Origin: Phorcus lineatus
Taxonomy: Eukaryota; Mollusca; Gastropoda; Trochida; Trochidae
Reading direction: 5' to 3'
Assembly (NCBI GenBank): GCA_921293015.1
Contig: OV121087.1
Location: 40,162,630-40,226,629 of the forward strand
DNA length: 64,000 nucleotides
Part shown: piece after piece, positions 5,830 through 59,130 of the stretch
Layout: every line of letters begins with the position of its first letter
Position numbering within the stretch: position 1 is the first letter of the stretch
The notes under the pieces: model-generated
What the model was told of the DNA's origin: nothing
Databases searched by the model: none
Seen by the model: the letters and a program-made list of their open reading frames with translations, nothing else
Translations under genes and position numbers: made by a program

Positions 5830-7914
5830 ATGTGTTCATTCCAGATCACGGTAAGTTATATATTGTTCTCCTTCACTAACTCACGAACATTACGACTTAT
5901 ACTAATGCTCTTACTTGCTTGTTGTACAATTATTAGTTACATGTAAGTCATACAGATGTAAACTTAGTTGTTTGCTTTATTATTTTCGCATATGACGAGT
6001 TATAATTACTCTATAGGTTTAGGTAATGTCTGCATTTAACGCCTGTCAGAAAACCAAACGATGAAATTTCAAGAACTATATTTTTAATCAACTGACAGAT
6101 ATAACGACAAGTAAGTTTCAAATGTTATTTTGACACTCTCTTTATGATCGTTTGATACGAATTTTCGCAATAACATTAGGTAAGACTTATACTATCCTGA
6201 TTAAACGTAGTCTTTTGTAGCCCATCTGTCTCTGTCATCATGGTAAAAATGGTTTCAATTGAGAATTCAAAAGTGAAAATTGGGTGCATATGCAAATATA
6301 GAACATAAAATTTTGATTAATCATTCGTTTCAAGGTCTTGGTTCTGCTAGGAGCAATCTGTTTTGCCAATGCTTACTATCCAAGGCCGTGTCCAGGGTTA
6401 ATTGATGATGGAATCGCCAAGAACAACTTGATTGGCGAGCCAGTTACCAATGGAGTGTAAGTGTTGATTTATCCCAACAATAATAAACCTTAACTTCAAT
6501 AATTGCAGCATAAATAAATCTCTACTTTAACCCGTTTTACCAACGAGTGATTGACTGCACTAACTGAATGCAGACATCTTTGTTATTTGAAGATGACAGT
6601 AATATGATAATTTCTAAATAAAATGTCTTCATATAAGTTCTTTGACTGCTTTTTTTCAACATAGAATGACGATTCGTACAATGTTATTTGTTGAAAGCAA
6701 GATGTAACCTTTTTTGTGTCTAATATTACTAAAAGTGTCTAAATTGTATATATTTCTCTGTCCAGTGGTTACTATGGTAAGAGAGGAGGTCAAGGCGCAG
6801 CCGTGTGTCCCTCCCAGACCCTGGTGCTGACTGAGCTGGAAGTGACCGTTGAAGTTGGCAGTGGCTACAACAGGACAATTCAGAGGGAACAATGCTGGGT
6901 GGACAGAGACCAGGACGTCAGATATGAAAAGTGTTTGTGAGTAAACTAAAATTCGTCAAGCTTGCACTTTGTATCTCTATGTTTGAAAATCACATTGACA
7001 AAAGAAAAGAGCAGATTCTCAATTCTGTCTTTTGGATACTTTGTTTATTATACCATGCTATTGGTATTTCCCTAACAAAAGCAAGGGGTATGTCAAACGG
7101 CCTCAGGAATCATAATATCGTATGACATGTACATTTTCAAAAGTCCTCTCGATCTTGTATTCACGTTACAAAGTGGTAGTTCTGTTTCGACAGTAGTCCT
7201 CTTATGATAAATTTGAACCGATATATATATGCCTTCATTGATAAAAGCATAGAAATGGATATTCAAAAAGGATTTACATGATAGATGTATTCCTTAGAAA
7301 GTAGTTCAATGGTGTGTTAACAGTTAAAAGTAACTTCATTAACCAGTGTCAAATTAATACTGTTTAGCTTTTATACAAATAGTCTCAAATAATGTAAATA
7401 CATTACCAGGAGTCGAATTTTAGACTTGGTTAGAAGTGAAACAGGAGAATGTTTTTCGAACTTTTACATTGTATTGTCTTCCAAACTAATCCATTGATGC
7501 TACATCTTTTGCAGGGCTAAACAATGCTCGAGGTGTGAAACAAGGGGTGCTGGAAGATGTGTCCCAGTACTGAAGACAGTCACCTTTAGAGCCATCTGTC
7601 GTCCAAAACAAGAGGAAATGACCACCACAACCACCACTACAACCACCACAACAACCACCACAACCACCACCACGAAGAGTCCTAAGGGATATCATTTCTT
7701 CTCCCTTGATGATGGGTTTGGTGGTTACAAAGATGGCGTTGTTCTTGCTTTCAAAGGCAAAAATGATGACAACAATGGCATGGAAGAAGAAGAAATGGAG
7801 GAAGAGGTGGAGGAAGAGATGGAAGAAGAAGAGGAGCAGAAACCAGTTGCAAAAATCCGAGATATTACCCTGCAGTTGCCCGTGTGCTGCCAGTGTCAAG
7901 TCCTATATTGCTAA
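5830..7914 (+). CDS. Small secreted Cys-rich, Thr/Glu-rich protein; IL-17-like or cystine-knot-like (complete)
   Basis: Four coding exons: 5830-5850, 6335-6456, 6766-6936 and 7515-7914, all with GT-AG junctions and consistent phases, give 237 aa. The start gives a clean signal peptide (MCSFQITVLVLLGAICFANA, the first intron falling inside it), and the mature chain begins YYPRPCPG. Twelve mature cysteines follow. The block REQCWVDRDQDVRYEKC, then KQCSRC, then GRCVPVLKTVTF, and finally LPVCCQCQ near the C-terminus, follows the order W, D..RY, AxC..C, VPV..., V.C.C of IL-17 cytokines. This is pattern similarity only; other cystine-knot or shell-matrix proteins are possible. Between the last two blocks is an insertion: about 18 consecutive Thr (likely O-glycosylated), a KGYHFFSLDDGFGGY segment and a Glu-rich stretch. 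A TATA box precedes the gene and a polyadenylation signal follows it. A head-to-head paralog lies at 1-2648. Confidence 0.8.
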
Positions 7915-10210: not shown

Positions 10211-12500
10211 GTAATATTGTCTCATGCTACCCATTTATATTTTGACCACCCTTATGAACCCGACCCAGAAGAAAAGGGGTTTTACTGGGCAACAAGATTT
10301 GCAAGCAGATGGAAAACCTTCGGCTATATTTCTGACAGCGTATACGACAACGTCGATGTAAGGAGAAACGGCGACGTGATGACGAAAACGGAACTATGCG
10401 GCGGTGATGGCAGTTTGTACGTGCCACCGGAAAAGCCTGAAAACATAATTGGTGTGACATTTGCATACAATTGGTTATTTTTTTTTGGTCCTTGGTGTCA
10501 ATATCAGATAACATTATAAATATTAAACTAAAATTCGTAAAAATTATTTCCCTTTTAAATGGTTGTTGAAGAGTATGAATATAAGCTTAACGTTATTTCA
10601 CTTTTAAATCACTGTTCCACAGGTCATTTCATCAAACGCTCCATTTCACTGGCTAATAATAAAGATGGATATAAAAGTTCGTTGTGAATAAAGCGACATT
10701 GTTTCAAACTGAACATTTGAAAGTTAATAAGTCTAGAGTTACTTGAACTGTACGATGCGCACATATTTGTCCATGTAGAACTGAGTCGGAGTTGTAAGAT
10801 GTTTTTTTGGAAATACCCAATTGGCTAATATTCACCGACAGGAAAACCAGTTTGTAACAGAGTTTACGTGAACAGAAAAGGTTTGTGGTAAAAAAGGACT
10901 ATGTACGCTATCTTTCGTAGGTTTAGTCATGATTGTGTGCAGAACTTGTTTTTTACGCTGCATGCTAATATACTTTCATACGATATAAATCCATCATCAT
11001 ACTTCACATACATATATAATTGACTCTAATATCTACCTACCCCGGAGCATGCTTATTACATGATATTCCTTAGACTTTTGGCATTAGCTGAGAGGGAACA
11101 TATTTTGGACAATAAGGAGAAACGGGAGATGGCCAAAATAGAAGACTGGCAGAATTTTACCAATGTTCTTGAACTTCCGTTCCTAGATTCCATGAACATC
11201 ACATACAGGATTCCTCCCCCAGGTGCCAGGTGAGAATAGCTTTAATTACAGGTAACATCCTTTAAATATATAAACCAGTCAATGTAAGCGCCGCTTTTAC
11301 TCGTCCAAGAATGTTCTTAGAGAATGATAAGCATTTATACCATTGAAATACATTCTTAACGTTACTTCAGATTATCCTTTTAAGGCTACAGAGGCTTGAG
11401 ACAACAGTAAGATTGAAATAGATATCGAATAAGAACTTGTAAGGTCCATGTCCATGTGTTTTTCTCCAAAACGTCCCTTCACGCACTCAATAAGCAAACA
11501 AGGTGTGCAAATTGACCGTTGCAGTGTTCTGGAGATGCGTTCAGTCATAAAAGTACACTCCAAAATAGGAATAAACATTGAACAATTATTATTTCCGAAA
11601 AACGCTGATTAAATGAATTAATTCAAATATTGCCTCTTTGATGTTTATAGTGAATGTTGGATTGAGCCGCGACGTTTTATAGTGGTTGTGTTTGTCACGA
11701 GCTGTTCTGATGGCCATTTCAGGATAATAAAGCGGCGAGTACGAGTTATCTCCCCTCTACCAGGTCTGTCAATCGAGACGAGTACTGGCAGAGGCAACAC
11801 ATGGAAAGCTGGGGAAAATGATATGACATTCAACGCTGGGCAAACCATTTGGATCGCTTTAAAATAAGTTATGAATTTTTAGATATAGAAAAAGCTGACT
11901 TCATCACTCGCAACTCATTAAATCAAATCGCCATTTCTGTCATCAATGACTATTACCAGCGTTAATTGTTGTTTGAAATAAAGTTATTTGCTTAATTGAA
12001 AGATTTGATTTTTTGACTTTATCATCATTCCAATCAAAATCGTAGTCGGACTACTTAAAATTTATCGCCAACATCTAATTTATTCGAATATATATATATA
12101 TAAATATATATATTTATATATATATATATATATATAAAACATCGCATAATTACCAATCTGTCGGGATCATTACATCACCGTATCATCATCATCGTCATCA
12201 TCATCATCATCATCATCATTATTGACAATAGCTTATTTCAAATGCGCCCATCCCACCATGATTGCCATTGTCACTAATGAGGGTTTTAAAATATAATCAA
12301 TGCGTTTTCAAAGACATAATTCACACAATACATTTTGTTTTAACAGATCGGCAGACGGAAAGAGACGAGGACGACCGACATCTATCAAAATACCATCTAA
12401 CAACAGACCTAAACCAGGAACATCGGGATCTCAAGACAACCACTCACCTTCATATATACTCGCCACGTGCTTGATTATATACCGAAGTTTTAAAGCATAA
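10211..12500 (+). pseudogene. Broken 3' fragment of a chitobiase (GH20) gene
   Basis: Four exon-like blocks match the last four exons of the large gene: 10211-10451 (intact; starts VILSHATHLYFDHPYEP), about 11040-11231, 11723-11863 and 12347-12500 (ends with the same hydrophobic tail ILATCLIIY and a TAA). Damage: block 2 has lost its splice acceptor and first ~38 nt, including the active-site loop GMQGHLWSE, and carries in-frame deletions of 21 nt (AWHKADW region) and 9 nt. The block 3 donor has changed from GTAAGTT to ATAAGTT, so an in-frame TAA follows. No upstream catalytic exons exist here. It is far closer to the second module than to the first, so it is a recent partial duplication. It is almost certainly not a functional enzyme, although transcription cannot be excluded. 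Confidence 0.8.
12088..12225. repeat. (TA)n and (ATC)n microsatellites
   Basis: An alternating TA tract at about 12088-12137, then a TCA/ATC triplet run at about 12181-12221, both in the last intron of the pseudogene. A shorter TCA-type run sits at the corresponding place in the intact gene (about 36210-36265). Confidence 0.8.
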
Positions 12501-13149: not shown

Positions 13150-14700
13150 AATGTTATGATAATACTTTTTATAGAGATATGATTATAAGATAAGCAAGAT
13201 GTTATAGATAACAACCTGATAAGAAGATACACGACTTTTCGGAGAATTTACTTACTATCTAATTCAGGTGATTGTTCAATATAATAATGATAACAACTAA
13301 CTCAACTGAATTTAATGTTTGCAAGGCATTCACTCAAGACGATTATTCTACGAATAGTCTTTGAGTAAGTATTTACTTAGTCACAGTTACCCAACATTGT
13401 TATTTTATTTATGTGTGTTCAAGTTTTATAAATTCAAACTTTGTATTAAGAAATGTCGACTTGACTTAAGATAACCGGAATACGTAAGAAATAGATTTCA
13501 TAATTTGTTCACTGGATCTTAAAAGGGTTAAAGGGCGCAATTCAAATTAGTATAAATACCAGAACGTGTCTACTTTCGAGTAAACAAACAATTTTTGAAA
13601 TTACTTTCTAATGAATTCAAACTTTGAAATTCAAGGAATTGCAAAAACAAATTAACAGACCCCAAGCACCGCCCACATAAGAGATTCCTAAGACAAATGA
13701 AAAAACTAAATAATAGCAGTTCACTGATAAGGTAAGGAAATTTGGGGTCTCTTGGCTAATATTGCTCATACAGAAATTTCAGTAGATCTCATCGATTTCC
13801 ATCAGTTGATTTATAAACCTATAATCAAGCCAAAGTGATTTATACGTTTTATAGTTAAGGCTTTAAAATGCTGTCGTAAACCCATTAAATTTCTGGCTAA
13901 CATCTTTCATTTTAAAAAATAAAATTTTACAAACAGAACAGAATTGTATATGCCTCTTACAAAGTGCAAAATAATCGATTAAGTGCACCTATGCACAAGA
14001 CGATGGTGGTTGACATATTACTGTGCACAAAATATTTCTCCTAACATAACGCATAATCATGTTCAAGTGCTCATATTGTAACCTTCATGCTGAAGGACGT
14101 TGAGTAGTAAAATTATTCTTACAATATGATACATGATTATCTTACGAGTAACGTTTTTAGGAATAAATGTAAAATAATGGACAATCAACTGCTCTCAAAA
14201 TATGGCAAAATCATCTTCCAAGTGTCTTATTATAACAGTTATTTATGTTGGTGAACGTGATCAAACAATAGAAGTGGAATTCATTGACAATGTACAGTTC
14301 AAAGGCGACCCTCACTGTTTGCAATAGGTTTTATACAAACATCTATGTACACCGAATCCCTTTTCTCCCGTTTACAAACACCCATCCGTCTCATATTCCT
14401 CCTGACGGCGGGGTAGTCGCACCTGAACTTTCTACCTGTGGAAATGTTTGGATTACTTACCTTTGCATTCCTACCAGGTAAGATAAAATATCAAGTAATA
14501 CAACAAAAATAATAGAAGGAAGAATAGACTTCTGTGTTTAAATCATTTAAATTTAGATGTGTATATTAAGTTAAGCAAATCATAGTATGTTTTAGAAGGA
14601 ACGATATTCTTACTGAAATCTTTTCTCTCCAACTGAAGGCCAATTGAATAATGAAATGCAACTAGTGCATCCCAATATTTCGTATTTACAACGTATGCAT
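13150..14700. other. Non-coding, nothing recognised
   Basis: AT-rich. Open frames such as the one at 14284 have no supporting features. Confidence 0.4.
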
Positions 14701-19268: not shown

Positions 19269-22200
19269 ATGGCTACAATTTTCTTTTCAGTTCTGGCATC
19301 AGGTCAGCTATGGAGTCAGACACAGCTTGACAATTTTGCCCAGACTTTGAAAGTCAGATGGAAGGTCAAGGACAACTTAAAGCAAGATTACAAGGTCATG
19401 GTCGACGTGACCTTGACAAACGAAGGGATTTACACTCTTGGAAACACAGGAGGTTGGAGTATATACTTCACATGCATTATGCCAATTGAATTTGAACATC
19501 TTAAAATGCCAGGAAGCGAATATGTTCTTGAAGGTCAAGGAGTCAGGGTCACACATTTCCAGGGATCACTCTTTCGTTTTGAGCCAACATCAGATTTCAT
19601 GGACCTACCTCCAAATAGAAGCAGAAAAATAAAGCTCAAAGTTCAAAATTGGCAAGTGTCAAGGACAGATTCAATGCCAAATTGGTATTTCGTCGTTCAA
19701 GGTCGCGTTCCCAAGGTCATAGAAAACACCGTAGGAGAAAATCTTGCATTTGTGGATGATTTAGATATGCCTCAACACTTCAAAAGATACTCTTTCGACA
19801 AATACTCTCCTTACACCGCCCAGGACAGATTCAGAAGATACCACCATGGAAACATGGCAAGCAAAAGTGACATCAGAATCATCCCCACTCCTCTCAACAT
19901 GACCATGGACAACACTTCCAGCTTGACCATTGACCAGTCGTGGAGAATCTCGGCGGACAATGGACTAACCACTGAGGCAACGTATCTTAATCGTAAGAGA
20001 GCAGTTGGTCTTGATATATAGTCGGTAGAAAACTTAGAACTTACAGTTGAGAAAGAAATAAAGTATCAAGTTTCTTTGCAGTAATCAATTAAGAATGTGT
20101 TCGGAAATTGATACAAGCATAAACCTAATAAAAGTAATTTTTGCTTAATGATTCTCTTAGTCGGAATTTATAATTAATACTTATTGGTACAGTTTCGATA
20201 TGTTATTTTTATAACGTTTTTTCATTGGTTGATTTTCACTTTTTTATTTGTAAGTTTGGTCAAATGGAAGTTAAGGTTATTGTGAAATCTGTATATAACG
20301 GAAAGCTGTAGTAACATTTAAATGTTTTTCGAAACGATAACTTACTTTTTTGGACATCACCACATTGATATAGAGCAATAACCTACAGCCTTCCAAACCC
20401 TGCACCCAATGTCCATTCAAATGACATTTTGATCAAAATGGTACGAGATTACTCTTTGATATTACTTCACGTTTTTTCTACAGAACTATCAGACGTCTTG
20501 ATCGGTGGACAAAATGTCGCCTCAAAGGTTATACGCATGCGCATCGGAAATGTCGTCACCAATGGCGGACGTCCAAATAGTCCAGAAAACTACAAACTTA
20601 CTGTGGACCCGGGGAGTAATCTCGTAGAAATCATTGGCCAAGGGAACCCGGGAGTGTTTTATGGCGTCCAATCACTTCTTAGTCTGATGTCCCAAAATGA
20701 CAATATGCTGTACAAGATGGAAATCATGGATTCGCCTCGATATGAATACAGGTTATAAGTTATATTGATTGTATTAACGTATATGATCTCGGCTGAAAGT
20801 CGTTCTCATTATTACTCAGGACACTGATATTCCATAGCTTATCAGTAAACCTCATTACGTACTTTACATTAACGTACGCTTACGACTATATATCTTCTCA
20901 GATAGCTTTAAATAACCTTTGCTTAAATCTTTGAAAATGATGTGCTTTTTGGCTGCAAAATTTGCATTATCTGAAAGGAAGATCCATAGAAAGCATTTGA
21001 ACATATTAAACAGGTAATCATTGAAAACATGACCAAGAGGAAAGAGCTCTAGGTATAATGTTCTTTAAAGTTATACATGCCAAGATCATCATTTCTGATT
21101 TAATCTTAGAGTTTCTTTGATCAATGGTTTGCCTTAACATCTTTTTAAACTATTCATTTTCTCCATTTAACTTTATCACTGAATACATAAGGGAAGATTT
21201 CATTGAAGTACTTTCAACTGTTTCAGAGGTATGCACATTGATGTGGGAAGAAACTTCAAATCGAAGGATACAATAATGAGACTTTTGAACAACATCGCAA
21301 CTTACAAAATTAATCGACTCCATTTTCACCTCTCAGAGGATGAAGGTTGGAGGCTACAGATTCCTGGCCTTGAAGATCTTACAACGGTATGAAGTGTTTA
21401 TCCTAGCGAGATGATCCTCAATTATTGACAATATGGAAATTTTTTTTGGGCACCACTTAACTCATGACAGATCTTGCACCTTCCCCAATTCCAAACCTCC
21501 TGCTTCCAAGTGTTCCTACGCCTATGCCCTGAATGGAACTGTGTTCTTCATCGTGTGACCGTCTTCAATTTTTTTTGTATCTTCTATCTTCCTAGTGGTA
21601 CACTGCATAGTCGAGTTCTTGGAATATTGACTTTATACTTAGAATATCAGACTTTTAAAGGGCGCCAAAACTTTCGCTACTTTAAACGTAGTTCATGAAC
21701 TTATATATCATGTAATTTATTCTTGATACGCATTTATGTATTGACAGTTGACTTGGCTTGCTAGAGGATACACCTGACGTGTTTCTCGTACTAACTACAT
21801 ACGTTATGATGTTTTAGTAACTTAATGCATATTCTTTGACTAATCTGTGCTTGAAGGTAGGATCCAAACGATGTCACGACCCAACCGAAAATTCTTGTAT
21901 CCTGCCTCAAATCGGTTCTGGTCCAGATGAATCTACTTCCGGGTCAGGTTTCTACACCACGGATGACTATCGTGAGATTCTCCGAGAGGCAGCGAGACTT
22001 CATATCACGGTTGTCCCGGAATTTGACATGCCGGGTCACTCTCGTGCCGCGATAGTGTCTATGGAAGCCAGATACAGACGCCTGATGGCCTCCGGTCAAA
22101 CGGAAGAAGCCGAAAAGTACCGACTCAAAGAGGAAGGAGACACGTCGGAGTACTTCACAGCGCAGATGTTTTCTGACAGCAACCTCAACCCGTGTCTACC

Positions 22201-25200
22201 ATCGACGTACAGGTACGAATATGTTTTTTGTATATTAAAGGGGCACAGAGTATTGTGTTGGGGTCAAATATGTCAAAATTCATAAATAGCGTTATTTTAT
22301 CGAGAAGTAGTGGTTGTATCAGAAAATCAGAATCATAATGCTTATCTTTCAGTAAAGTGACGTTAAACGGGCTAGTGTCGTGATTTGTGATCGAAAACCG
22401 GACAGTGGCGCGCGCCAATGATTCAAACGATATTTCGGAAAATTATTTACAGCAGACACAAAGACAAACATTGGTTGATAGTGTTTAGTACTTCCTTTAA
22501 CTTATATACACATTAAATGAACACATTATTTCGCCATCTTAATATTTTATAGGGCCGTTTTCCGATCATCGGTAAAAACAAGAAATATCATAATTTCGGC
22601 ATTTTAGGGAAAAAGTTGCAAGTTTAGGGAGGCGATTTTAACCTGACTCTGATCTTAAGGTATTTTGGCCCTTACTAAAGCCACATGGAAAATTTAAAAA
22701 AAAATACTCTGTGTCACTCAGTTTCAGTTATTATCTACAATCAGATTCACGAAGCTAAATCTCAAGCCAGGCACAACAGTTTGACATTCTGCAGTTAGAT
22801 CTCAATTCTCAATTCATTTCTCTATTCATTTCATGACATTGATGAGGCAACGATTTAAATATAACCCTTTATAACCTGCACGTACTCACTCATACGTTAT
22901 GTATAATACTTTTAAAGCTGAATTTCGTTACAGATTTATTGAACACGTTATGAAAGAAGTCGTAAAGATGCATAACGACATTCAGCCATTGACCGTCTAC
23001 CATTACGGTGCTGACGAAATCGGAAACGGTGCATGGGTGAATTCAACCCAATGCAAGAACCTGTTTAGCCCTCAACAGATGACTTTAGCCCTTGGAAAGG
23101 AATATTTCTTCCAACGTCTGGCCAATTTGACGTCAGGGCTGAACCTGAACATGGCGATATGGGAAGATGGTCTGATTAAGGAAGGAAATGAAGTGTTTGA
23201 TAGAAACCAGGCTAAAAATTCTGACGTGTATGCCTATGCCTGGGATAATGTTTGGGAATGGGGAACTGCCAAGAGGCCTTACAGTATGGCGAATCAAGGT
23301 TACAAGGTTAGTTGATTTTGACATATAATTCTTTGAGTAATCAATTTCCTTAGTTCAAGTTATTTAAATGTGTTCAAACCAAAAAGCCGTATTATGCCTG
23401 ATAAGAGAATTTTTATTCCACAACTGGGGAAAATCTGGTTTAGAAATGTTTTTTAGATTATAACTGATGGTAGATCTTGAAGGAACACATGGGTCGACAT
23501 GTTTTAATTTGACTTATTCCAATATGATAACCAATATCATGTGTTGCTATTTCAGTCAGTGTAACAATTGCACATGCTTTGCACGCTTTTCTTGTTCCTG
23601 TACAGATCTGAAATACTGCTTCAATAGTACTTTGCACGCCTCACTGATGTTCAATTCTCAGTTTCCAGAGACAATATTAGAGTATTTAACTTAAAGGCAC
23701 AAGCGCTCACCAATATTTCGTTAATATAACGATAACACTGATTACGCACATTTCCTGGCCGACTGCAAACCTCTGAATTTTATCACTTGTTGTTTACGTG
23801 TAGATTGATAAATCAAAAATGCTAATATGATTGTTTTATCCTCGCATGCATTGAAACAGCCATTTGGAACCGAAATGCGTTCTTTAATGCTTTGAATAAA
23901 GTACTACACTTTATACTATAAAACATAATGGAGTTGGCAATGTGCGGCGGTTCCGTAACGTGTTTTCTCTACCAACCAATTTCTAAAAATTTGAATTTAT
24001 TCCAATGCTATTGTGTCTTAAATTAAAGGCACTAGTGCACGCTTTTACGGTTTAAATTGGCTATTTTAATGTTTACGAGGACTTGTGCATTCACTTAAAC
24101 TGTCTATCGATGCAATGAAATACTAAACATTCTTTACAATTTACCTGCAATCAAGAATGAAAACGTTAAGATAGCCGCTGTCGACTTGGACATATCAAAA
24201 TCTATGATTAGCTGTGCACAAAACGGATAAATTATTGACACTTGGAAACGGCTGAACTAGTATTGTGTGCAGCTATTGAATTTACCTAAACTCTGAACTG
24301 AGAACAAATCATGAAATATGTTTTATGAAAGCAATGTTGTAAATTAACCTATTTGATAACACAGTATTAGCATTGTTATTAGATTGACCATAGCGCCTGC
24401 CGTTTCCGCTTTTCTGGTTATGAGCAAAATTGTAATATATCCGATATCGTAGTTCATGCGGATTTAATGTAGCGTAACATAAAATACTTCCGGCCTTTTA
24501 AAATCCACTTTACTACCTGAATAAGTAAATATTTGTTAAATAACTTACGAGGTAGATTACTTGAGTGAGGATAGTGAGTGATATCTAGAGATATGCAGTA
24601 TCTGTGCATTCGTTGTGTTTACGAAATATTGGCGTGCACTAGTGCGTTTAAGGCACATATAATATAACTATAACACTGATCATGCACATCTCCTGGCCGA
24701 CTGCAAACCTCTGAATTTTATCACTTGTTGTTGTTTAAGTGTAGATTGATAAATCAAAACACTAATATGATTGTTTGATCCTCGCATGCATTGAAACAGC
24801 CATTTGGAACCGAAATGCGTTCTTTAATGTTATAAATAAAGTACTACACTACTATAAAACCTTATGGAGTTGGCAATGTGCGGACGTTCCGTAACGTGTT
24901 TACTTACCAACAACCCATTCTTTAATTATTTTTTACATTTTTCAAATTCTATATCGCCTTAAAGTAAGATTCTAACGGGTCGTTTTTAAAAAGAAGACTT
25001 TGAAACTGTTAAGGCATTTACATTTAAGGGCTGTATAGGTTGACGTGACCTGTTTGCGTGAGATTAGACACTACTAGTTCTATATTCATTTTCAAAGTCT
25101 TACTGTACTCATAAAGTAAATATTTGACATTTCGTTTGAAAGGTTCATCATATTTGCACTGGTCAATTGAATACAAACGCCTAATTTATTCAGAATAAGT

Positions 25201-28200
25201 GTTGTTAAAGTTTGCATAAGAGATAAGAACATTTATACGTTACCGTATATATCTAAATAATCTGTTACTCGTTTTCAACATTTGAAGCAATGTTGTCCTC
25301 TTGAGCAAGTCTCCTCAAAGAATAACACGCTGAGATTATGAAAAACACCTTCCTAAAATTCTGTGCAATTAATCACCACGATGGTATTTTTCTTTATAAT
25401 TTGGGCAATAAATAATATTTCAATATGACGTTTTATAGATTTATTCATTTTATACTTCGAATTGTTATATATTCTAGCTTTTTTCTGATTTTTATCTTTT
25501 TGACAGTTAGGCATACTTGATAGAAGGCCATAGAGTAATAAACTCTATGCCCGGCCATGTTATCAGTGGAGTTTGAATTACACTTCATACTGATGCTTCC
25601 AAAAACGGGTTTATAGTATTTAGTTGAGTGTAAACGGTAAATTCCTTCCTGACGACAAAATACTCTAGCAAGATATATATATATATAACATTGATATTAA
25701 CCATAAACCTCCAAGCAAACGTAGGACATCCTCGTACCTCGGACGTATTGGTATGATAATATTCGAGAAAAACATCATTTCTATGTTAAAAGCAAGCAAA
25801 ACACGAGTGTCCGGTTCCCAGAATAAACCCACATTAATTTTCCTGGTATGTTTACAGATGGGACGCAAAGTAAATATACCCTCCCTTGACAATGTCAGTC
25901 TACACTTTGATTAATGTTGGAATACACTAGCCTCGTCACTGCTTTCTTTTTATGATTAGAATTACTGTTGCTGCCTCACGTTAGCCTAAAGAACAGGTAA
26001 AATCCGTATGCGTTTGATCGTGTGTAGAACGACAAATACCATGTGTTCGTGACAGATAGAGAAATCCACGGGTTAAGCTTCAGGAGGAACGGGTACAATA
26101 GGAAATAGTTTCCCGTTGTTACTGTGGTCTAATTCGTACACTTGTATCTTTCTCTATCGTTACTTTACGATTGCAGGAAAGGCAAGTTAACAACATATAC
26201 TAGATTCGTCGTATCTTTTTAGATGAGTAATTGTATTAAAAAATATAGACATTTAAAAACAAAAATTAAAGCGAAAATTCTTCGGACACTGTCGTTGCTT
26301 GCGTCGTAAAATATTCTAGGTATAATTATTACACTTATTTGATGTTAATACTAACATTCCCGTACGCACTGGTCTAATTCATATAAACTAATGTAGTCTA
26401 TCGTTTTCTGACCAACTGCCTGTCTGTCTATCTCTCTCGCTCGCCCTCTCTCTTCATCTGTCTCTGACTCTCTTTCTCGGTGTATTTGTCTCTCCCTCTG
26501 TTCCTCCACCTCTCCCCCTGATAATTCGCTCTTACTCTCTCCTTCCTTCATATTCATTGGAGTCCATCTGTCTTTCTCTGTCTCCCTGTCTCTCTTTCCC
26601 TCTCTGTCTTTGTCTTTTCCTCTCTCTCTCTCCTGTCCCTCTCTCTCTCTCTACCTCTGTTTCTCTCTATGTCTTTTTCTTTCTCTGTCTATATCTCTGT
26701 GTCTTTTTTTTCGCTGCAAGCTGGAGATTTACATGTGTATATGATTTGTGTCATTTTAAAAATACGATACCTTGATCCCTGATAAAACGTTCTCTACAGG
26801 TTGTATTGACCCACGTAAGCCACCTCTTCTTTGATCACCCCTATGAGCCCGACCCTGAGGAACGAGGCTTCTACTGGGGGCCTCGATTCACGGATACCAT
26901 GAAGACGTTCGGATACACCCCCGAGAATATTTATGCCCTCATTGACGTCAGAAGGTCGGGCCAGCCAATCACAAGAGCGGAGGTTTGTGGAGCTGAAGAC
27001 GCTAACTGTCCGCCATTGGAAAAACCAGAAAATATTGCAGGCAAGACATGATCATGCAGCTATTGAAATAAGGATATTCTGTATGCCCAACTTTCCAAAT
27101 AAAAAAGTGTTTGTTTGCACTTACAAACCGAAAGTGATTTATGAGCATTAGTATGATATTTTGATGTATGCATTTATGCAGTGTAACTCGTATATTTGTA
27201 ACTAATTATTTAAAGTGAAATTATTTGCCGGTTTTTGTTTTACGCGTTAATTCACCATTTCAAAAATGATATGTCATGAAAACAATTTGTAAAATGATAA
27301 AAACATTTTAAATTCATTCTTCGTTACATATTTCGTTTACTGTAAAATCTCGAAAAGCGAATCGGATATTCGGAAAATGATGACTAACTGAAAAAGTGGC
27401 AAAACCCATTGGCCTGTCCGTCCTGAAACTTAGAAAATGTAATCTTTCATAATGTTTTGAAACAAATCCTAATTTCTCTCCCAACATACGTAATGACGTA
27501 TTTATTTCTTAGAAAATATGTTAGACAGGTGATTAATAACATTCATCCAATCAGGTATGCAAGGCCAGCTCTGGAGCGAGACGATGAGAAACCAAGACCA
27601 GGTAGATTATATGATGTTCCCGCGTCTTTTCGCTTTGGCGGAAAGAGCATGGCACAAGGCATCATGGGAAGAGAACATCCAAACTGAGGCTGGCATGGCG
27701 GCCATGAAAGAAGACTGGAAATCCTTTGCTGCTCAAGTTGGTCGCCATGAGTTCAGACGATTGGACGACAAGGCTGTGAAATATAGAATCCCCCCTCCTG
27801 GTGCTATGTAGGTTGTCGATTTTTATTATCTGTCTATGATATTTATCGTTTTTCGTTTTATTGTTTATTTCAGTGAACAATTTGATTATTTATTTCATCT
27901 GCGATGTAAAAGTTTTTGGATATGTCTATTCGTATTATCTTCAGTGCTGAGAGAGTGGCAAGACACACCGTTTTAGTTATACCGGTCTAGTTTTAGTTAT
28001 TCCTTATCTATTTTAACCTTTTAAATCATTCTAAAGGCCTATCTAGTTTGCATGAGAACATGTTAAATTTTCACCACATTGACATCGACGTATTTTCATA
28101 ACCTTTCAACGTCGAACCTGGAGAAACCTGATTTACCACACAGTTATAAGTTCATTACTTTTTATTCCTCTAAGGATCAGGTAGCGAACTTTAATAATAG

Positions 28201-31200
28201 GCTCATGTGAAGTCCAAGTGTAAAATATCACTCACAGAATGAGCGTCGTTCTTGCTCGGGGAACACCAACCTTGGCACTCGTGTAAACAAAGCATGTCAT
28301 AGGCAATATTACTATTCTCTATTAATATAGGGTAGAGAAGGGATTCTTAAAGTTGTCGACAACATTTCCCGGGCTGGTTGTAGAATACAGCAAGGACAAA
28401 GGGACAACATGGTACAGAGCCAACCACAATGTTGTCGTGAAGCCCATGGACCATATTCATCTCCGAACAAGGTACTTTCTCAGAATGTTATATATTCATG
28501 TAATAGGATCATTAAATTCCATTTTGTCAAAATAAATATGTTTTACGATATGTGATAACAATCCTATCAGTTAACCATGTCAATATAGACGTTTGTACAA
28601 TCGTGTCAAAGAGACATGTCAACAGGCAACTGCTTATTATTCATGTCTACTGAAGTGTTGAAAATATGTTACTTATCATTTTCGCTCTTAAAACCCTCCA
28701 AGAGATAAGCAAAATAATTGTCAAAAAAATATTTACTTTTTTACAAAAATTAGTATACAATAATTACAACCACAAACAATATTTTCAATACATATTCAAT
28801 TACAAGTACACCGTTACTACCATATAAGTAATGAACGTTCCTTTTTCTCAATATTTTGTATTCTTGCCTGATGAATAAGTCATCATTTCTGTACCCATGT
28901 GCTTTTAACAAATCCTTATAATATGCCTTAAAAGTCCATTGTAATTATTCTACCTTCAGATCCCCGGATGGAACTCGCTACAGTCGGATCGTATCCCTGC
29001 ATGGAGGTACAGTTGACAACATGCTTACAAGATAAAAAAATGTCAATGTTGCGATATTTAAAGATTTACTTTGAAATGTTGATACTTGGTAACCTTTTAA
29101 ACCGACCGGAATCTCTTTTCATTGTTAAACTGCACTAGAAGCATATCAAACAAACATTTGGAGAATCTAAAAATCTCAACCCTAAGGTAACCTTAATACG
29201 CTGTTAACGGATGGTACTAAGGTTTAACTTAGCGTTAAGGTTATTTTGTGCAAGTAAGTTTGAATATATGGACTTATTTTAACTCATTTTGAAAATATTT
29301 TGAAATATTTGAAAGTTTACTAAAGCAATGAAATCGAGAAAAACACTTCTGTAAAGCTCATGTTTCTTGTTATGAAAAACTAGATTTCTCATTGATTCAA
29401 ACCCTTACATCTTGAAGAAAATGTTATTATAATTACATTTCAGTCCGACCTCTTCCGTTTGTGGACCAGCCGACAGTTGATCATATTGCCCAGAGTCTTC
29501 ACATCAAGTTCAAGGTCGTTGATAACTTTCAAGATGGCGTGTCCACATATCTGGCTCAGATTACCATGAAGAACACAGGAACCAAGAACGTCGAGGCCGG
29601 AAACTGGGGAATCTATTTCAACATACTCTTTAAAGTCAGTGAGAAACAACCATATCTAGACATGGAACATATGACAATAAAGCACGTTCGAGGCGGACAA
29701 TTCAAGCTTGAACCGACTTCGTTGTTCAAGGCCTTGGAACCCGGGGAGGAAAGGAAGTTGAAATTCACGGTCCTTTTCTGGTCGGTGTCTAGATCTGATT
29801 GGATGCCGAACTGGTATGTCTGGGCCGAAGGTATGAAGGGGAAGACAATCCCAAATACTGCTGGACCGGAAGTGGATTTTGTTGAACCTTTCCTGGAGGT
29901 CAGACAGTACCAGCGTTACAACACGAGCGTGTTCAAGGATCGGTAGGTGACATGTACATCTTTTGCGTCTATACCTTTGCTTATCAGTCATTTGGAAATT
30001 TGGAAATATTTCAAAGCCTTAAGAGGCCAGAAAGAGAATGTAATTTGAGACACTAAGTGCCTTTAAGCGTTTAAAGGGGCACAGAGTTCGTTGTGAAGTG
30101 TCAAATATGTCAAACTTTAAAAATGGTATTATTTTATTGCGAAGAAGTTGTGGTAAATGAAAATCAGCATCCCGATGTTTTTCAGTTGAGTATAGCGACA
30201 ATAAACAGGTTTCAGTCATAAAATTGCGCTCGCCAATACCTCAAACGTAATTTTGGAACCTTATTGAGAGCGGACACAAATACCAATATGGGTTGGTAGT
30301 GTTAAGTAGGTTATTTAACTACCATGCATGTCAATGGGATCCAGAATTTTTACTTTAAACATTTATATGGCCGATTCAAAATTTTCATTGAAAACAGAAA
30401 TATATTATGATTTTGTCATTTGTGAGTTAAAGATGCAAGTTTTTTTTGGGGGGGGGGGGGGGCGATTGTACTTCATTAAGGTCCCGTGATCTTTTGGTTA
30501 TTTTTATAAGCAATATGAAAAGTCATAAAACATATTCTATGTCACCTTAATTTGGCCGCTTTTGAAATGACATGTTTTATTTACAACGGCAATGAGCTCT
30601 ATAAATAAACAATTCTTTGTTGAAGTTGATTTCTTCGCCATCATTTGCTTTGAACAACGTAAAATATAAGTAGCGTGCAATAACTGATTTTCAGATACTC
30701 GCCATATACAGCAAGCGATAGATACGACATGGATAAAGATATACCGGACATGAAAGGGGCGCACATTTCAATTATACCAACGCCTGTTACCACGGTGATG
30801 GATAAGTCTATGGAGATGATGCTATCAGACATAACAACAATCTACACTGACGTCATGTTCCAGGCGGAAGCTGAGTTTTTGAGGAGTATGTTTTGTTCAT
30901 TTGGATTTAAGTGCTGGTAAACAGTAATTAAAACATTAAATTGTACAAAGCAAACGGGATAAATGATGCTTTTTACATTGAAGTAGAGACAGTCTCACGG
31001 GGTTTTTTCAAATTCCAAGACAAGTTTTTTTAATCAAGTGAAGCAGTTTTAAAATGAAAGTGATATGATCGGTTACGCTATGCGAATCCATTTCCCTACT
31101 TTGGTGACTTGGGTCTCATCCTGGGCAAGACACTTCATCCACTTTGCACTCAGTTTACCCGGCTGTACAAATGGGTACCTGAACAAGGGGGAGGTACGGA

Positions 31201-34200
31201 CCTATACGGTCGCACGGAGCGCTTGTTAATCGGCGGCACCGAACATACTATCCCTCCAGGGTAATAATACTCATGGCGCTTTGAGTATGCTTTGTCATGG
31301 ATATATGCGCGGTATAAGAATGCTATTATTATCATACTTCAGCAACTTATAGGTTTTCAAACAATAAACAAATAATTGATTGTTTCCTCTACGAGTGCGG
31401 ATGAGCCGGTTGAGTAATGAGATTTTTTACTCTCTGAAGAAATTCATTTTGAATACAGAAATGTTTATTTGGTAAGATTTAGGAAATAAAAGTGTTACTG
31501 CCATTTTAATTGAAATAGCGTAAAATCAATTCAAATCTTGTTTCAATAATTTTCAGACAAATCCGGATTTCTAAACGAAATAGAAAGTGCCCTGTATCTT
31601 AAGATAATACTCTTGAGCACCTATTCATTATTAATTGGAAGTTTGTGATAATATTTTAAAGTACCAATAAACCAACTTGCAAATGTTTCAGATAAACTTT
31701 CTAGTTTTACGTCTATCACCGTGTCGACATCGCCTCCCCAAGGTGAAGGTTACATACGCTTCTTCAGCAGAGTTCCAAGGGTCATGGTCAAAGGTCAAAT
31801 GTCAACTTCCCCGGAAGCATACTCTCTTACCATCGACCCTGTCACCAAAACAATCAACATTTGGTCAACTTCGGCCCATGGTATTTTCAACGGTGTCCAG
31901 TCATTCTTATCCCTTGCACTAAAGGCCACCGAATCTCTCAAACTACATAAGGTGACAATCGAAGATGCACCAAGGTTTGAATTTCGAGGAATGCATTTAG
32001 ACACCGGGAGAAACTTCCACACCAAAGAGACGGTAATGAAGCTCCTTGATGCAATGGCGATGTATAAAATGAACAAATTCCACTTCCATCTCACGGAAGA
32101 CGAGGGCTGGAGGGTTGAAATTCCTGGAATGGAAGAATTAACTAAGGTAAGTCCAAGAATTTATTGTGTGTGGGAACCAATACGATTTGTGAGTATCAAG
32201 GTTTTCTGAATTTGAAAAAAATATTTTAAAAACAAAATCACAAGTTAGTTGCATAGTCTTTAGATTATAGACCATGGGCAAATATTTTGTAAACTGTAAG
32301 TAGTTCATACAATAATATGTAAATATGATAACAAAGTACATAATGTTGTTTATTTCCACATCAAATATTTTTAATTTTATTAATTTTGTAATGAAGATAT
32401 TGGTTATTCATTACATTTGATAGTACACTTGCAGTTCAATTTCTAACGAAATCGCATTTTAAATCAAATTACTTCAGGTATCAAGATTGCGTCCAAAATA
32501 TTCCATATCGTATTCCAGATCGGAGGAAGGAGATGTCACGACTTGTCAGAGGAGGAATGCATTATCGCGCAGTGGGGCTCAGGACCCGACACATCTACTT
32601 CCGGGACCGGATTCTATACAGTGGAGGACTATAAGGAGATCCTTAGATTCGCCAAGGACCGCCATATTGAGGTCATACCGGAAGTTGACTCTCCGGGCCA
32701 CGCCCACGCCGCCATAGTTGCAATGAAAGCTCGACGTCAACGTCACCTTGACCTTGGGGACGTCGCAAAGGCTGATTTGTACCGTCTGCACGACCCAAAT
32801 GACAAGTCGGTGTACCTTTCCGTTCAATTGTTCTCTGATAATGCCATCAATCCATGTGTTGACAGCACTTTTGCATTCTTTAGCTACATTGTAGAAGCTT
32901 TTGTTGAACTTCACAGAGACGTGAGTCCGTTGAAAACGTTCCACTTTGGCGGTGACGAGGTCAGCAAAACAGCGTGGTTGGACTCTGAGGCGTGCAAGCC
33001 ATTTCTTGAGGCAGGGGTTAATTTAAAGGAGTACTTTACTCAACATATTTCCAATATCACCTCAGCCTGGGGTTTGAACCTAGGAGGATGGGAGGATGGT
33101 TTGATGGTCTCAGTTCAGGAACCATTTAACCTTAGCAAGATGACGAACGCAAAGGTATTTGCAAACGCCTGGGACAATGTGTGGGAATGGGGAGTTTCCA
33201 CAAGAGCCTACAAACTCGCTAACGAAAATTATAAGGTAAATATGAACACGTAATATCAAATATCAACACTAAATATAAAAATATGTATCACTCCACCATT
33301 AAATGATAATTAGACGAGAGAAAAATGTAGTGTGCCATTAGTGTATTTCAACTGGCAAGAGACAATTACACAGGATTTCCGCTGTACTTCTCTGAGTATT
33401 ATCATTTAGCTGTTAATTGGTTAAATATGACGGATAATTTAGTAACTGGTAATAAGTCTTTTAAATGTTTTGCTGACCATTATCATGAAATCTAGAAGAA
33501 TTTAATCTGTGTTTGCGATCTTTATATATTTGGAAGAATAACCATTTTCGTTTTCGCAAAAAGAAACCCTACATCCTCTTGCTTGTTTTAGAAATACCAA
33601 AAATGTGTTGCAACATAGGCAAAAATGCAGCTACAACTTAATCTTCGCTATGAACCATTTTCTCGAATATGAAATTCTAACTATTATTGAAATTATGGCA
33701 TTAAGCGAAGCACTAGTAAAATCATGGTTTGCTGTCCTATCAGATTCTGATAAATATCTAGGATAAAGTTAATATCATATGTAACTTATGAACCGATCTC
33801 CGACACATTTTGTAATTTGTATACGTCATTGTCTTTGTCAGATTAGGGAATCACCTCTGAAATATTAATCATTTTCATAAGAGTCTGTTGAATTTGTAAA
33901 AAATATTTGACAAAAACGCTGATGGAGACTCATTTTCAGATTTGACTAATTTTAATTTCATCTTCGGAAAATATATATACGTAAAAGAGAATTTTTATTT
34001 CTAAAGAAAAGACTGCAACAAAACATACAGAATACATAAAATGGTCGATTCTATTTAATCTAAGCATTAAATGATTATTATTATACATAATTTAATTCGA
34101 AAATTCTTACTTTCCAGGTAATATTGTCTCATGCTACCCACTTATACTTTGACCACCCTTATGAACCCGACCCAGAAGAAAAGGGATTTTACTGGGCAAC

Positions 34201-36559
34201 AAGGTTTGCAAGCACATGGAAAACCTTCGGCTATATTCCTGACAGCGTATACGACAACGTCGATGTAAGGAGAACCGGCGACGTGATGACGAAAACGGAA
34301 CTATGCGGCAGTGATGGCAGTTTGTGCGTGCCATTGGAAAAGCCTGAAAACATAATTGGTGTGATATTTGTATACATTTGGTTATTTTGTTGGTCCTTGG
34401 TGTCAATATCAGATAACAGTATAAATATTAAACTGAAATTCGTAAATATTATTTCACTTTTAAATCGTCATCTATTACTGCGTCACATCAAGCCAATTAA
34501 TCAATTTAAATGCATGACAAGATTTGCGTTATATATAATCTGCATACTCATGGTCTATGGTGAAATCGTTGATATGAGTTATATCTATAGAGGCATCAAC
34601 TTTCTCAATATATAGATGTACATGTATCTTTTATCCCACTTGCAGGTATGCAAGGCCACCTATGGAGCGAGACGGTTCGAACCCCGGATCATGCTTATTA
34701 CATGATATTCCCTAGACTTCTGGCTTTAGCTGAGAGGGCGTGGCACAAGGCTGATTGGGAACATATCTTGGACGATAAGGAGAAACGGGAGATGGCCAAA
34801 AGAGAAGATTGGAAGAATTTTACCAATATTCTTGGATACCAGGAACTTCCGTACCTGGATTCCATGAACATCACATACAGGATCCCTCCCCCAGGTGCCA
34901 GGTGAGAATAGCGTTAATTACAGGTAAAATCCTTATAAATTTACCGATCTAGGTCAGTGCCTCTTGCACTCAGCCAGGAATGTTCGAGTGGGCGGTTACA
35001 AGAAGAATCAACGAGTTGCCAGGTAGTACGTTGTATCTGAAAGTCTTGAGTTTAACATTGTATTCAACTCCGAGCTTGAAAGAGATATTTAGTGATAAAG
35101 TGCCTTTAGTCATACAATTTAATTATCCATAATCAAAGATGATTACTTTAAGAATACATGACCTTGTAATATAGTGTTCGTTGATAACACTTACATAATT
35201 GTTTAAACTATAACCTTTCTAAAGATATTTATATTAATTATTTCCTTCATGCTATACAAATCGTCATAATAATTCAACCAAAGCTTAATATTCATCACTT
35301 TTAAATAATGAATTATTCAATAACTAATAAAAGGATAAAAAAATATTTCATTATTGAAAGACAGATTTTTTTCTTAATTTTGATGATGAGTGAGGTATGT
35401 CACGAGCTGTTCTTAACGTCATTGCAGGATAATAAAGGGGCGAGTACGAGTTATCTCCCCTCTACCAGGTCTGCCAATCGAGACGAGTACTGACAAGGGC
35501 AAGACATGGAAATCTGGGAAAGATGATATGAAATTCAACGCTGGACAAACCGTTTGGATTTCTCTTAAGTAAGTTAAAATTTTAAGACGAAGTAAAGAAA
35601 AAAGTTTTTCCAATCTTATTACCGAAACATCATCACTATACAAGATTGCATTTGCTTGCCTTTATTGTCAGATATTGTCAATATGTCGTTTTTTTAAATC
35701 AAATGTTTTCGACTTATGGCTCAATTTAATGGGGAAAGTGCTGAGATGGACATGATGTACTATTAGATAGAATCAGATGACGGTAAATTTTCGAAAATAT
35801 ATTCCTGCACCGTTGAACCAGTTACACCACTAGCTGTCATTTTTTAAATAATAAGATATCCATATTTATGCCATAGATCAACGTTATGTCATGGTCTTCA
35901 TTCGCGCGGTCAAATGTTCAATCATTTCATAAAGTAGTTATTGATCATGTATTCGAGCGTAATAGTGAAAGAAACCACAAATAAACTCTTTACTTTTCGT
36001 TTCATTCGTTACAAAATAAAAAAAGTTTCTTTTGAAATTGCGTTGACACGTTGAACGCTAGACTCACTGAATAAATGACTAAAAAGTAGTTCATCATATG
36101 CCGTTATCATACGTTTTAGTAAGGGTTATCCTCACATATTGATCATCGGTATCATCGTTATTTTTCCATAATCCATTTCACTAATGTGAAACTTCTGTGA
36201 CAAAGAAAGAGTTATCGTCATCGTCATCATCTTGACTATCTATCATCATCATAATCATCATCTTAAACAAAAGCTTTTCACAAAAGCGTACTTGCCATGA
36301 TGATCAATTTTTTCACCAATTGATTAAATATAGAATTTCATCAGATTAAAGTTGTATCATTTTTGAAAGGATATCTTCCAAACAATACTTTTTTTGTTTT
36401 AACAGATCGGCAGACAGAAAGAGACGAGGACGACCGACGTCTATCAAAATACCATCTAACTACAGACCTAAACCAGGAACATCAGGCGCTCAAGGCAACC
36501 ACTCAGCTTCATATATACTCGCCACTTGCTTGATTATATACCTTAGTTTGAAAGTGTAA
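19269..36559 (+). CDS. Tandem two-module chitobiase (GH20 beta-N-acetylhexosaminidase), 17 coding exons, predicted C-terminal membrane/GPI anchor
   Basis: Exons: 19269-19992, 20484-20751, 21227-21386, 21857-22212, 22934-23306, 26800-27040, 27555-27807, 28331-28471, 28960-29006, 29444-29942, 30695-30885, 31692-32146, 32519-33235, 34118-34358, 34646-34901, 35428-35568, 36406-36559. Phases agree throughout, giving about 1738 aa without a stop. Order: CHB_HEX, GH20b, GH20 barrel, CHB_HEX_C; then the same four again; then a basic/Pro-rich tail with hydrophobic ILATCLIIYLSL at the extreme C-terminus. GH20 chitobiases remove terminal beta-linked GlcNAc from chitin oligomers by substrate-assisted catalysis with an Asp-Glu pair; both modules keep it (about D530/E531 in HYGADE, D1382/E1383 in HFGGDE). 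The start is uncertain: TTTTCTTTTCAG ending at 19290 looks like an acceptor, so an upstream exon may supply the signal peptide. All introns are GT-AG except the one after 27040, which is GC-AG. A single transcript is inferred from phase and the absence of any stop between modules. Confidence 0.8.
22235..22717. mobile_element. TTAA MITE family 1, intronic copy
   Basis: Starts TTAAAGGGGCACAGAGTATT just after the splice donor at 22213 and ends TACTCTGTGTCACT. The interior carries GATCGAAAACCGGACAGTGG. The right-hand TTAA has been lost. It lies in the intron between the fourth and fifth coding exons of the chitobiase gene. Confidence 0.7.
23691..24962. mobile_element. Nested TTAA elements: two direct copies of a ~320-bp element flanking a family-2 MITE
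   Basis: 23691-24021 and 24648-24962 are near-identical direct copies (shared CTGGCCGACTGCAAACCTCT and GGAACCGAAATGCGTTCTTT), each edged by TTAA. Between them, 24023-24651 is a 629-bp element starting TTAAAGGCACTAGTGCACGC and ending with its inverse GCGTGCACTAGTGCGTTTAA. All three abut at TTAA sites in the 3.5-kb intron separating the fifth and sixth chitobiase exons. Relatives of the central element lie at 36900-37200 and 14715-15120. Confidence 0.7.
26400..26725. repeat. CT-rich simple-sequence tract
   Basis: Long pyrimidine run of CTCT/TCTG units in the same large intron. It creates Ser/Leu-rich and Arg/Glu-rich open frames on the two strands that are not genes. Confidence 0.8.
30071..30550. 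mobile_element. TTAA MITE family 1, intronic copy with poly-G tract
   Basis: TTAAAGGGGCACAGAGTT at the left and CATATTCTATGTCACCTTAA at the right, with TTAA at both edges (30071-30074 and 30547-30550). The interior CGCCAATACCTCAAACGTAA matches the other copies. A run of G at about 30447-30462 is internal. It lies in the intron after the exon ending at 29942. Confidence 0.7.
31080..31335 (+). mobile_element. SINE-like retroposon in a chitobiase intron
   Basis: Contains CCTGGGCAAGACACTTCATC, CCCGGCTGTACAAATGGGTA and ATGGATATATGCGCGGTATA, ending in an ATT/ATC-rich tail. This is the layout of SINEs common in marine invertebrate genomes, recognised from memory of such elements, not by a search. 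It lies between the exons ending at 30885 and starting at 31692. The minus-strand open frame over it is chance. Confidence 0.55.
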
Positions 36560-57984: not shown

Positions 57985-58520
57985 TTTCTTTTTCAAACGT
58001 AGACTCCACTGATAGCAATACATCTGTACCAGCGATGTTCCAGCTTCATTATGTCATTCTTATAGAACTCCGCATCCTGGGTCAAAAGAAATCTCTCCAC
58101 GACAGCAATTAGGCTGTTATTATCAACAAAACACATCCACGTAATTGGTTCTTTAGGTAGGGGAAGGGGGGGGGGGGGGGTAGAGAGAAAGAAGAAATGG
58201 TCACACGTCTAACTGTAAGCACCTATCATGAACATCAACAATTTGAAAATAAAAATCTTGGCATCATCTTCAACACTCTGCCGGCCACATTTGAATTCAG
58301 CAACCCATTTGGAAACTGTGGATGCAAAGGAGTCATCACTCAATGTATCGATCATGTCTTTATGGGTTTCCTGTGCAGACATTCCTTTCCTGAACAAATA
58401 CTTGATCTCTGAACGCTTTTCGACATCATTCTTTTTTCCAATTTCTTCGCCATGTGCACTTTGGGATGTTACATCTCGAAAACTACTCTACCGATGGTTG
58501 CAATATTCTGTCACTAGCTT
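57985..58520 (-). pseudogene. Internally deleted mariner transposase
   Basis: Minus-strand reading near 58250-58430 gives EKRSEIKYLFRKGMSAQETH, then STVSKWVAEFKCGR and SVEDDA: the N-terminal helix-turn-helix of mariner transposases. At 58010-58140 the same strand gives DNNSLIAVVERFLLTQDAEF, then KLEHRWYRCIAISGVYV and a stop: the mariner C-terminus. The catalytic D,D34D core between them is gone, replaced by about 100 bp that includes a poly-G tract at 58167-58180. The N-terminal start is also frame-damaged. Dead copy. Confidence 0.8.
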
Positions 58521-59130
58521 AAAAAAAGATCGCTTGTCAGGTTTTATAGATAATTTGTAAGTAGTGGATTGTTACATCATGCTCCTTCACGAACGTTTGT
58601 TATACTCTCGTATCGTACATCCTATTCTCTCATCTTAACTACAAGAGAATTACAACCAAACACTATCGCTGCAACGACTAGGCGCACCAAGTCAATGAGA
58701 GTTCCCAGTCGTACCAATGTTCCGCTGGATGGACCAGGTATGAGAGTCAAAACACTTTTTTCGTCTTTATATTGTACTTGAAGCCCTTGCAAATAAGGAT
58801 CTTATCTTGAACACGATCTGGTCAAAGCAAGCCATATGTATTGTACGCATTTTAAAAATAGACCGGTCATACTCATCAACCAATTAAATGAGCACGATTT
58901 TAAGAATAATTATAAGGTTTCGTTATATTATAATTGACCACTAATTTTTTTTACAATGACAATAATCAAGGTTTAAACTGGTTTGATGCTTCAACAAGAA
59001 AAGAGATTAAATTATCTAATAATGCCGTACATTCCTACTTAAGCAAGTTATCAACAACATTTACATTAAAAACATTTCGCAAAAAATTCATGTTACGACA
59101 GTTTTGTCAACGAGTATCATAATCTCAGAG

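Follow-up and report, generated by a model that had tools for sequence, protein, structure and literature searches.

The window analysed here comprises 64 kb of DNA (G000:C12:40162630-40226629), and the genome searched together with it amounts to 957.8 Mb on 74 contigs. In our corrected model the plus strand of the window carries one gene of 18 exons (14444-36559) with 5229 coding bases and a product of 1742 residues, in which two complete chitobiase modules follow each other in one reading frame (Table 1). The gene was built by hand from the sequence and then a second time with a spliced-alignment script, and both routes led to the same 17 exons up to 36559. Because the hand-made protein served as query, this agreement is partly circular for the window; the value of the script lies in the paralogues. 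Across the 17 exons all joins are in phase and no stop is encountered, and the introns are of the GT-AG type with the exception of one GC-AG intron. Every exon join given in the first-pass annotation was recovered as present, in phase and open, and from this gene structure we infer a fused mRNA.

Table 1. Exons of the two-module gene (window coordinates) and the evidence used to place them.
Feature	Position	Strand	Evidence
Exon 1, signal-peptide exon MFGLLTFAFLP, phase-1 donor GTAAGA	14444..14477	+	Scan for ATG exons with phase-1 donor and hydrophobic core
Exon 2, rest of signal peptide (VLASG), CHB_HEX of module 1, start of GH20b	19291..19992	+	Acceptor TTTTCAG ending at 19290
Exon 3, GH20b of module 1	20484..20751	+	Hand model, spliced alignment
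Exon 4, start of GH20 catalytic domain of module 1, R343	21227..21386	+	Hand model, spliced alignment, residue mapping
Exon 5, GH20 of module 1, D445, H449	21857..22212	+	Hand model, spliced alignment, residue mapping
Exon 6, GH20 of module 1, catalytic D534-E535	22934..23306	+	Hand model, spliced alignment, residue mapping
Exon 7, GH20 of module 1, F641, GC donor at 27041	26800..27040	+	Hand model, spliced alignment, residue mapping
Exon 8, end of GH20 of module 1	27555..27807	+	Hand model, spliced alignment
Exon 9, CHB_HEX_C of module 1	28331..28471	+	Pfam CHB_HEX_C, 8.8e-9 on 28329-28469 alone
Exon 10, 47-nt junction exon (SPDGTRYSRIVSLHG), phase-1 donor	28960..29006	+	Length of 47 nt and phase 1 shared by the five genes with an intron here
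Exon 11, CHB_HEX of module 2	29444..29942	+	Hand model, Pfam, spliced alignment
Exon 12, GH20b of module 2	30695..30885	+	Hand model, spliced alignment
Exon 13, GH20b and start of GH20 of module 2, R1195	31692..32146	+	Hand model, spliced alignment, residue mapping
Exon 14, GH20 of module 2, D1297, H1301, catalytic D1386-E1387	32519..33235	+	GH20 genome search, hand model, spliced alignment, residue mapping
Exon 15, GH20 of module 2, Y1489	34118..34358	+	Hand model, spliced alignment, residue mapping
Exon 16, end of GH20 of module 2	34646..34901	+	Hand model, spliced alignment
Exon 17, CHB_HEX_C of module 2	35428..35568	+	Hand model, Pfam
Exon 18, end of CHB_HEX_C, polar spacer, hydrophobic C-terminus (YILATCLIIYLSLKV), stop TAA	36406..36559	+	Mean hydropathy of last 15 residues 1.95

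Domains, relatives in the genome and the gene start

An eight-domain product had been predicted for the locus, and this is what Pfam returned: CHB_HEX, Glyco_hydro_20b, Glyco_hydro_20 and CHB_HEX_C each match in two stretches, with whole-protein E-values from 1.4e-26 to 1.5e-170 that exclude chance. The scan was run on a model starting at 19269, which differs from the corrected one in its first residues only. The gene thus encodes the four-domain arrangement of chitobiase-type GH20 enzymes (CHB_HEX-GH20b-GH20-CHB_HEX_C).

A genome-wide search for GH20 domains, in which all 68 of 68 candidates were scored, gave 63 matches, and those located elsewhere in the genome suggested the same order of a module A followed by a module B. 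Seven further regions were modelled; GH20 matches on C1:33.67, C13, C16, C17 and C39 were left out. Two modules are present on C47 (copy a being complete and copy b cut by the contig end) and at four places on C25 (14.03, 21.18, 14.10 and 22.35 Mb), while the regions on C11 and C1 contain one module each. C47 aligns collinearly with the DNA upstream of the window gene, the longer pieces sharing approximately 82-91% DNA identity. This contig may be an allele, in which case the independent two-module genes may number five.

The decayed 3' end of a second copy, consisting of the equivalents of the last four exons, is found upstream of the gene (window 10211..12497, plus strand). Its four pieces show tblastn identities of 92.5, 76.7, 76.1 and 84.0%, the second of them starting 11 residues late, and no earlier exons of this copy were found upstream within the window. 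Contig C47 has a complete copy at the collinear place. The single GC-AG intron of the window gene (27040 to 27555) is shared with C47 copy a, and the matching introns of C25:14.03, C25:21.18, C25:14.10 and C25:22.35 have a GT donor.

The first-pass annotation had the gene begin at 19269. This start is very probably wrong, as the ATG precedes a 3' splice site and a signal-peptide exon is located 4.8 kb upstream. The ATG lies within the pyrimidine-rich stretch (TTTTCTTTTCAG) of the acceptor that ends at 19290. At this position the window and C47 copy b have an in-frame ATG; in C47 copy a it is displaced by one base, and C25:14.03, C25:21.18 and C25:14.10 have none there; exon 2 of the last of these has an in-frame ATG directly after the acceptor. 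Scanning upstream revealed the 34-base exon listed as exon 1, and an equivalent exon is present upstream of C47 copy b (MFGFLTFAFLP) and also, read by eye, of copy a. It is most likely the first exon. When joined, exons 1 and 2 encode MFGLLTFAFLPVLASGQ, a good signal peptide by eye, and the N-terminal signal peptide characteristic of GPI-anchored proteins is likewise present as judged by eye (MFGLLTFAFLPVLASG). A search for a signal-peptide exon of C25:14.03 and C25:14.10 found none, and that for C25:21.18 produced one candidate only.

Active sites and C-terminal tail

Among solved structures, 9joq_A and the chitobiase 1qba, the latter a bacterial enzyme of the Serratia type, are closest to both modules. 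Each window module matches both structures over most of its length with the catalytic D-E pair aligned; however, the two structures have one module per chain, whereas the window gene has two. Residues were mapped on an alignment and are given with 1qba numbers and roles.

The initial claim that both active sites are intact holds in part. The D-E pairs and the arginines are where they had been reported, their corrected numbers (D534/E535, R343, D1386/E1387 and R1195) being those of the first-pass annotation plus 4, and both modules also retain the equivalents of Asp448, His452, four tryptophans and Glu739. On the other hand, the position of Asp378 is occupied by Glu in both modules and that of Tyr669 by Phe in module 1. 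As 9joq_A and the bacterial locus L029 have Glu at the former position, this residue is a tolerated variant and not a defining difference. The Tyr669 equivalent is Tyr in module 2 (Y1489) and Phe641 in module 1. The same replacement occurs in three of 13 other animal modules, namely module 1 of C47 copy a, module 1 of C25:21.18 and module 2 of C25:22.35 (module 1 of C47 copy b is cut before this position). Given that Phe stands in place of one Tyr, module 1 is probably weaker or different in preference, and module 2 probably the better equipped site.

More severe changes were seen among the paralogues. In module 1 of C47 copy a (L018-L020) the D-E pair is replaced by N and G, and Y and N occupy the Asp448 and His452 equivalents; module 2 of this copy is identical to module 2 of the window at every position checked. 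The reverse applies to C25:22.35, whose module 2 (L015-L017) has G for the Asp of the D-E pair and Phe for Trp737. Judged by these replacements of catalytic residues, one module is probably dead in two of the six two-module genes. In addition, module 2 of C25:21.18 has Glu at the Asp448 equivalent.

A membrane-anchor-like tail, proposed for the window gene at the outset, is supported: the last exon ends in a hydrophobic, GPI-signal-like segment, and four paralogues have the same kind of tail. In the window gene a polar spacer is followed by 15 mostly hydrophobic residues, whose mean hydropathy compares with values of 1.54 in C47 copy a, 2.41 in C25:14.03 and 1.31 in C25:21.18. The first model of C25:14.10 ended elsewhere, and a separate scan placed its last exon at 26655, where it continues the domain and ends hydrophobically (3.1 for the best 13 residues). 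The C-terminal spacer and hydrophobic end typical of GPI-anchored proteins are thus found in five of the six two-module genes; a C-terminal exon was sought for C25:22.35, C11 and C1, and none was found. Based on hydropathy and inspection by eye, the protein is predicted to carry, probably, a GPI anchor. A somewhat doubtful alternative is that the two-module protein is secreted into the shell or another extracellular matrix, its tail being cleaved or not constituting a GPI signal. Chitobiases have been reported from mollusc shell proteomes (accessible parts of PMC7747718 and PMC5105077), and the tail exon evolves faster than the rest of the gene (dN/dS 0.465 between the window and C47 copy a). 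Against this alternative and in favour of a GPI-anchored protein, a spacer and a hydrophobic end occur in five of the six genes, even though the more distant of these genes share little sequence identity.

The join between the modules and its origin

As the first-pass annotation had stated, the frame runs from module 1 into module 2: the intron between 28960-29006 and 29444 is a phase-1 intron, the join is in phase and open, and the paralogues agree. The 47-base junction exon with its phase-1 donor is common to the window gene, C47 copy a, C25:14.03, C25:21.18 and C25:14.10, i.e. to five of the six two-module genes modelled. The sixth, C25:22.35, lacks an intron at the join, and a single exon (L016:2582-2909) leads from SHDGRRFSRPITF at the end of CHB_HEX_C into the CHB_HEX domain of module 2. 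Together with its neighbours this exon matches both domains in Pfam (2.8e-14 and 1.6e-9); on its own, CHB_HEX stays under the cut-off (17.4 of 25 bits). The spliced linkers are alike in all six genes (HGVRPLPFV, HGVQPLPFV, TGTEPLPLM, HGTEPLPMV, YPTPPVPIL and the intron-free FNTTPVTSL). Comparison of the window gene with C47 copy a over 54 codons across the join yielded 4.5 non-synonymous and 10.5 synonymous differences, corresponding to a dN/dS of 0.104, next to 0.196 for module 1 and 0.121 for module 2. By this measure the 54 codons are under purifying selection. Since the genome holds several more genes of the same build, the fusion is very likely real, and one fused two-module protein is the very likely product.

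Two other ways of reading the junction were weighed against continuous splicing. In the first, intron retention in place of splicing would generate, next to the fused anchored form, a short secreted form that consists of module 1 and ends after 29006. A stop lies 2, 2, 9 and 10 residues past the donor in four of the five genes (46 in C47 copy a), and A(A/T)TAAA motifs are present in the junction introns of C47 copy a (2), C25:14.03 (8), C25:21.18 (1) and C25:14.10 (2). However, early stops in a retained intron would be expected by chance, the phase-1 donor GTGAGTA(A/G) itself making one, and A(A/T)TAAA would occur in AT-rich introns anyway. The 437-base junction intron of the window contains neither AATAAA nor ATTAAA, and the tails obtained by reading through the donors (9, 46, 10, 2 and 2 residues) are unrelated to one another. 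We therefore regard such a short form as quite unlikely. The stop nine residues past 29006 is not conserved and was rejected as the gene end.

In the second, the locus would consist of two neighbouring one-module genes: module 1 would continue past 29006 and end at the stop at 29033-29035, and module 2 would possess a promoter and a leader exon of its own. The first-pass annotation had named a leader exon before 29444 as the finding that would speak against fusion, and the search for it had a mixed outcome. ATG exons with a phase-1 donor were detected in the junction intron of the window (29040-29088 with the donor GTAACC, and 29211-29253 with the good donor GTAAGT), and two candidates exist in C25:14.03; at the same threshold there were none in the junction introns of C47 copy a, C25:21.18 and C25:14.10. 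With candidates in two of five genes that are not shared between them, leader exons in the junction intron are unlikely. Two separate genes would account for the in-frame stop past the window donor, for A(A/T)TAAA in four of five junction introns and, as adjacent genes would co-duplicate, for matching trees as well, and oyster chitobiases are in print as separate models (PMC7747718, part of the text); yet the conserved spliced linker next to unrelated read-through tails, the intron-free join of C25:22.35, the three junction introns devoid of leader candidates, the lack of AATAAA/ATTAAA in the window intron and the absence from the model of a GPI-like tail belonging to module 1 make this arrangement very improbable.

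The fused gene bears traces of its origin. For six of the seven introns inside module 2, module 1 has an intron of the same phase in the same alignment column. A phase-1 intron borders module 1 at either end, which means that a copy of this module stays in frame, and we propose that an in-frame duplication of a module flanked in this way would have created the two-module gene. A tree was calculated from the animal module rows and ten bacterial rows, selected among the 80 loci fetched. In it, all seven rows of module 1 group together (92/91), and five of the six rows of module 2 make up a second group (98/97); the order within both groups agrees: the window gene with C47, C25:14.03 with C25:21.18, then C25:14.10. 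All six module-2 rows come together at 77/95, and gene order agrees apart from module 2 of C25:22.35; the tree program marked the C25:22.35 rows as unusual in composition.

Proposed function, known systems and minor features

Taking the observed gene structure, domain content, kept residues, conserved join and duplication history together, we consider it likely that the product of the locus is a single secreted and probably GPI-anchored protein in which two chitobiase modules, arisen by in-frame module duplication, follow one another. The fused mRNA, the GPI anchor, the substrate and the activity are predicted features of this protein. GH20 chitobiases act as exo-enzymes and accommodate the non-reducing end in a pocket. 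By the substrate-assisted catalysis of GH20 enzymes each module would remove single GlcNAc residues from the non-reducing end of chitin oligosaccharides or of other GlcNAc-ended glycans. With the tandem arrangement, one tethered molecule would most likely carry two exo-sites that are not identical, together with two carbohydrate-binding domains, the benefit being avidity and division of labour, not processivity. Processive action on chitin, suggested in the first-pass annotation, is not supported because placing two exo-type pocket sites one after the other does not render an enzyme processive. As far as can be judged from the residues, the protein would most likely function as an exo-enzyme that is tethered and has two sites, the stronger one in module 2 and a modified one in module 1.

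Tandem GH20 domains are known from pneumococcal StrH, which according to the available part of PMC4449183 combines two GH20 domains with two G5 domains. StrH and the window protein, whose single chain follows from the gene structure, have two GH20 domains in one protein in common. By contrast, Pfam detects no G5 domain in the window protein, in which each GH20 domain is instead accompanied by CHB_HEX, GH20b and CHB_HEX_C. Bacterial and archaeal genomes were scanned with two peptide patterns. Among the best 80 of 141 relatives the longest matching frame comprised 975 residues, none of the loci had two G-x-D-E motifs, and the fetched DNA contained no further GH20 match at any of them.

Oyster and pearl oyster have larval and adult shell chitobiases with neighbouring gene numbers (CGI_10007856/CGI_10007857 and Pfu_20027/Pfu_20028), which the accessible part of PMC7747718 presents as separate four-domain proteins. 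Compared by description only, they share the four domains with each window module and are numbered adjacently in both species; they are, however, described as separate proteins, whereas the window gene fuses two. Chitobiase or hexosaminidase is also mentioned in other mollusc shell or genome work (PMC5379566, PMC5105077, PMC8059625, PMC8382897, PMC8063583, PMC8933548), and the portions available of these six articles say nothing of two modules. Among the papers listed by the literature searches, no account of two chitobiase modules in one animal protein was recognised; animal protein databases may already contain such predicted models. The two-module form is built from known parts.

It is tempting to speculate, tentatively and at rather low odds, that the two-module unit is old in molluscs, that in oysters the neighbouring 'larval' and 'adult' shell chitobiases represent its two halves, split secondarily or by annotation only, and that the unit multiplied in the present genome with one module repeatedly becoming non-catalytic. 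If this were true, the genes with a changed module 1 (C47 copy a) or module 2 (C25:22.35) would encode tethered enzymes that cut at one site and bind at the other. The preferred reading, a tethered two-module enzyme, would mean that an animal lineage has built by module duplication a family of eight-domain, apparently membrane-tethered enzymes for chitin oligomers. It also prompts one to ask whether the gene models of mollusc shell chitobiases are split correctly, and the paralogues with one probably dead module may offer a natural test of the role of the second site in chitin remodelling.

Outside the GH20 genes, the mitochondrial contig C74 (19,115 bp) was inspected. Its first 3 kb (C74:1-3000, L128) display, by eye, ATP6, ATP8, COX2 and COX1 frames on one strand, and a tRNA-like start with a GAA anticodon adjoins them by eye, without a call by ARAGORN; tRNA (ARAGORN) and Rfam searches of this piece found nothing. 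The gene order fits the ancestral mollusc arrangement, a fit that is no proof; the animal is probably a mollusc. No tRNA was found in the 64-kb window, and a plasmid search with one exon gave no match. When eight other open reading frames of the window were compared with Pfam, only one passed the cut-off, and only just: an HTH_48 fragment as in Mos1-type transposases (58212-58487, minus strand; 24.4 of 24.1 bits). Two similar Thr-rich and Glu-rich frames (7498-7911, plus strand; 3-317, minus strand) share the stretch CSRCETRGAGRC(V/I)PVLKTVTFRAICRPK and have weak Pfam matches, all of them below the cut-off. Finally, a 60-base tandem repeat occupies 59129-59343 with 3.6 copies and 95% matches.
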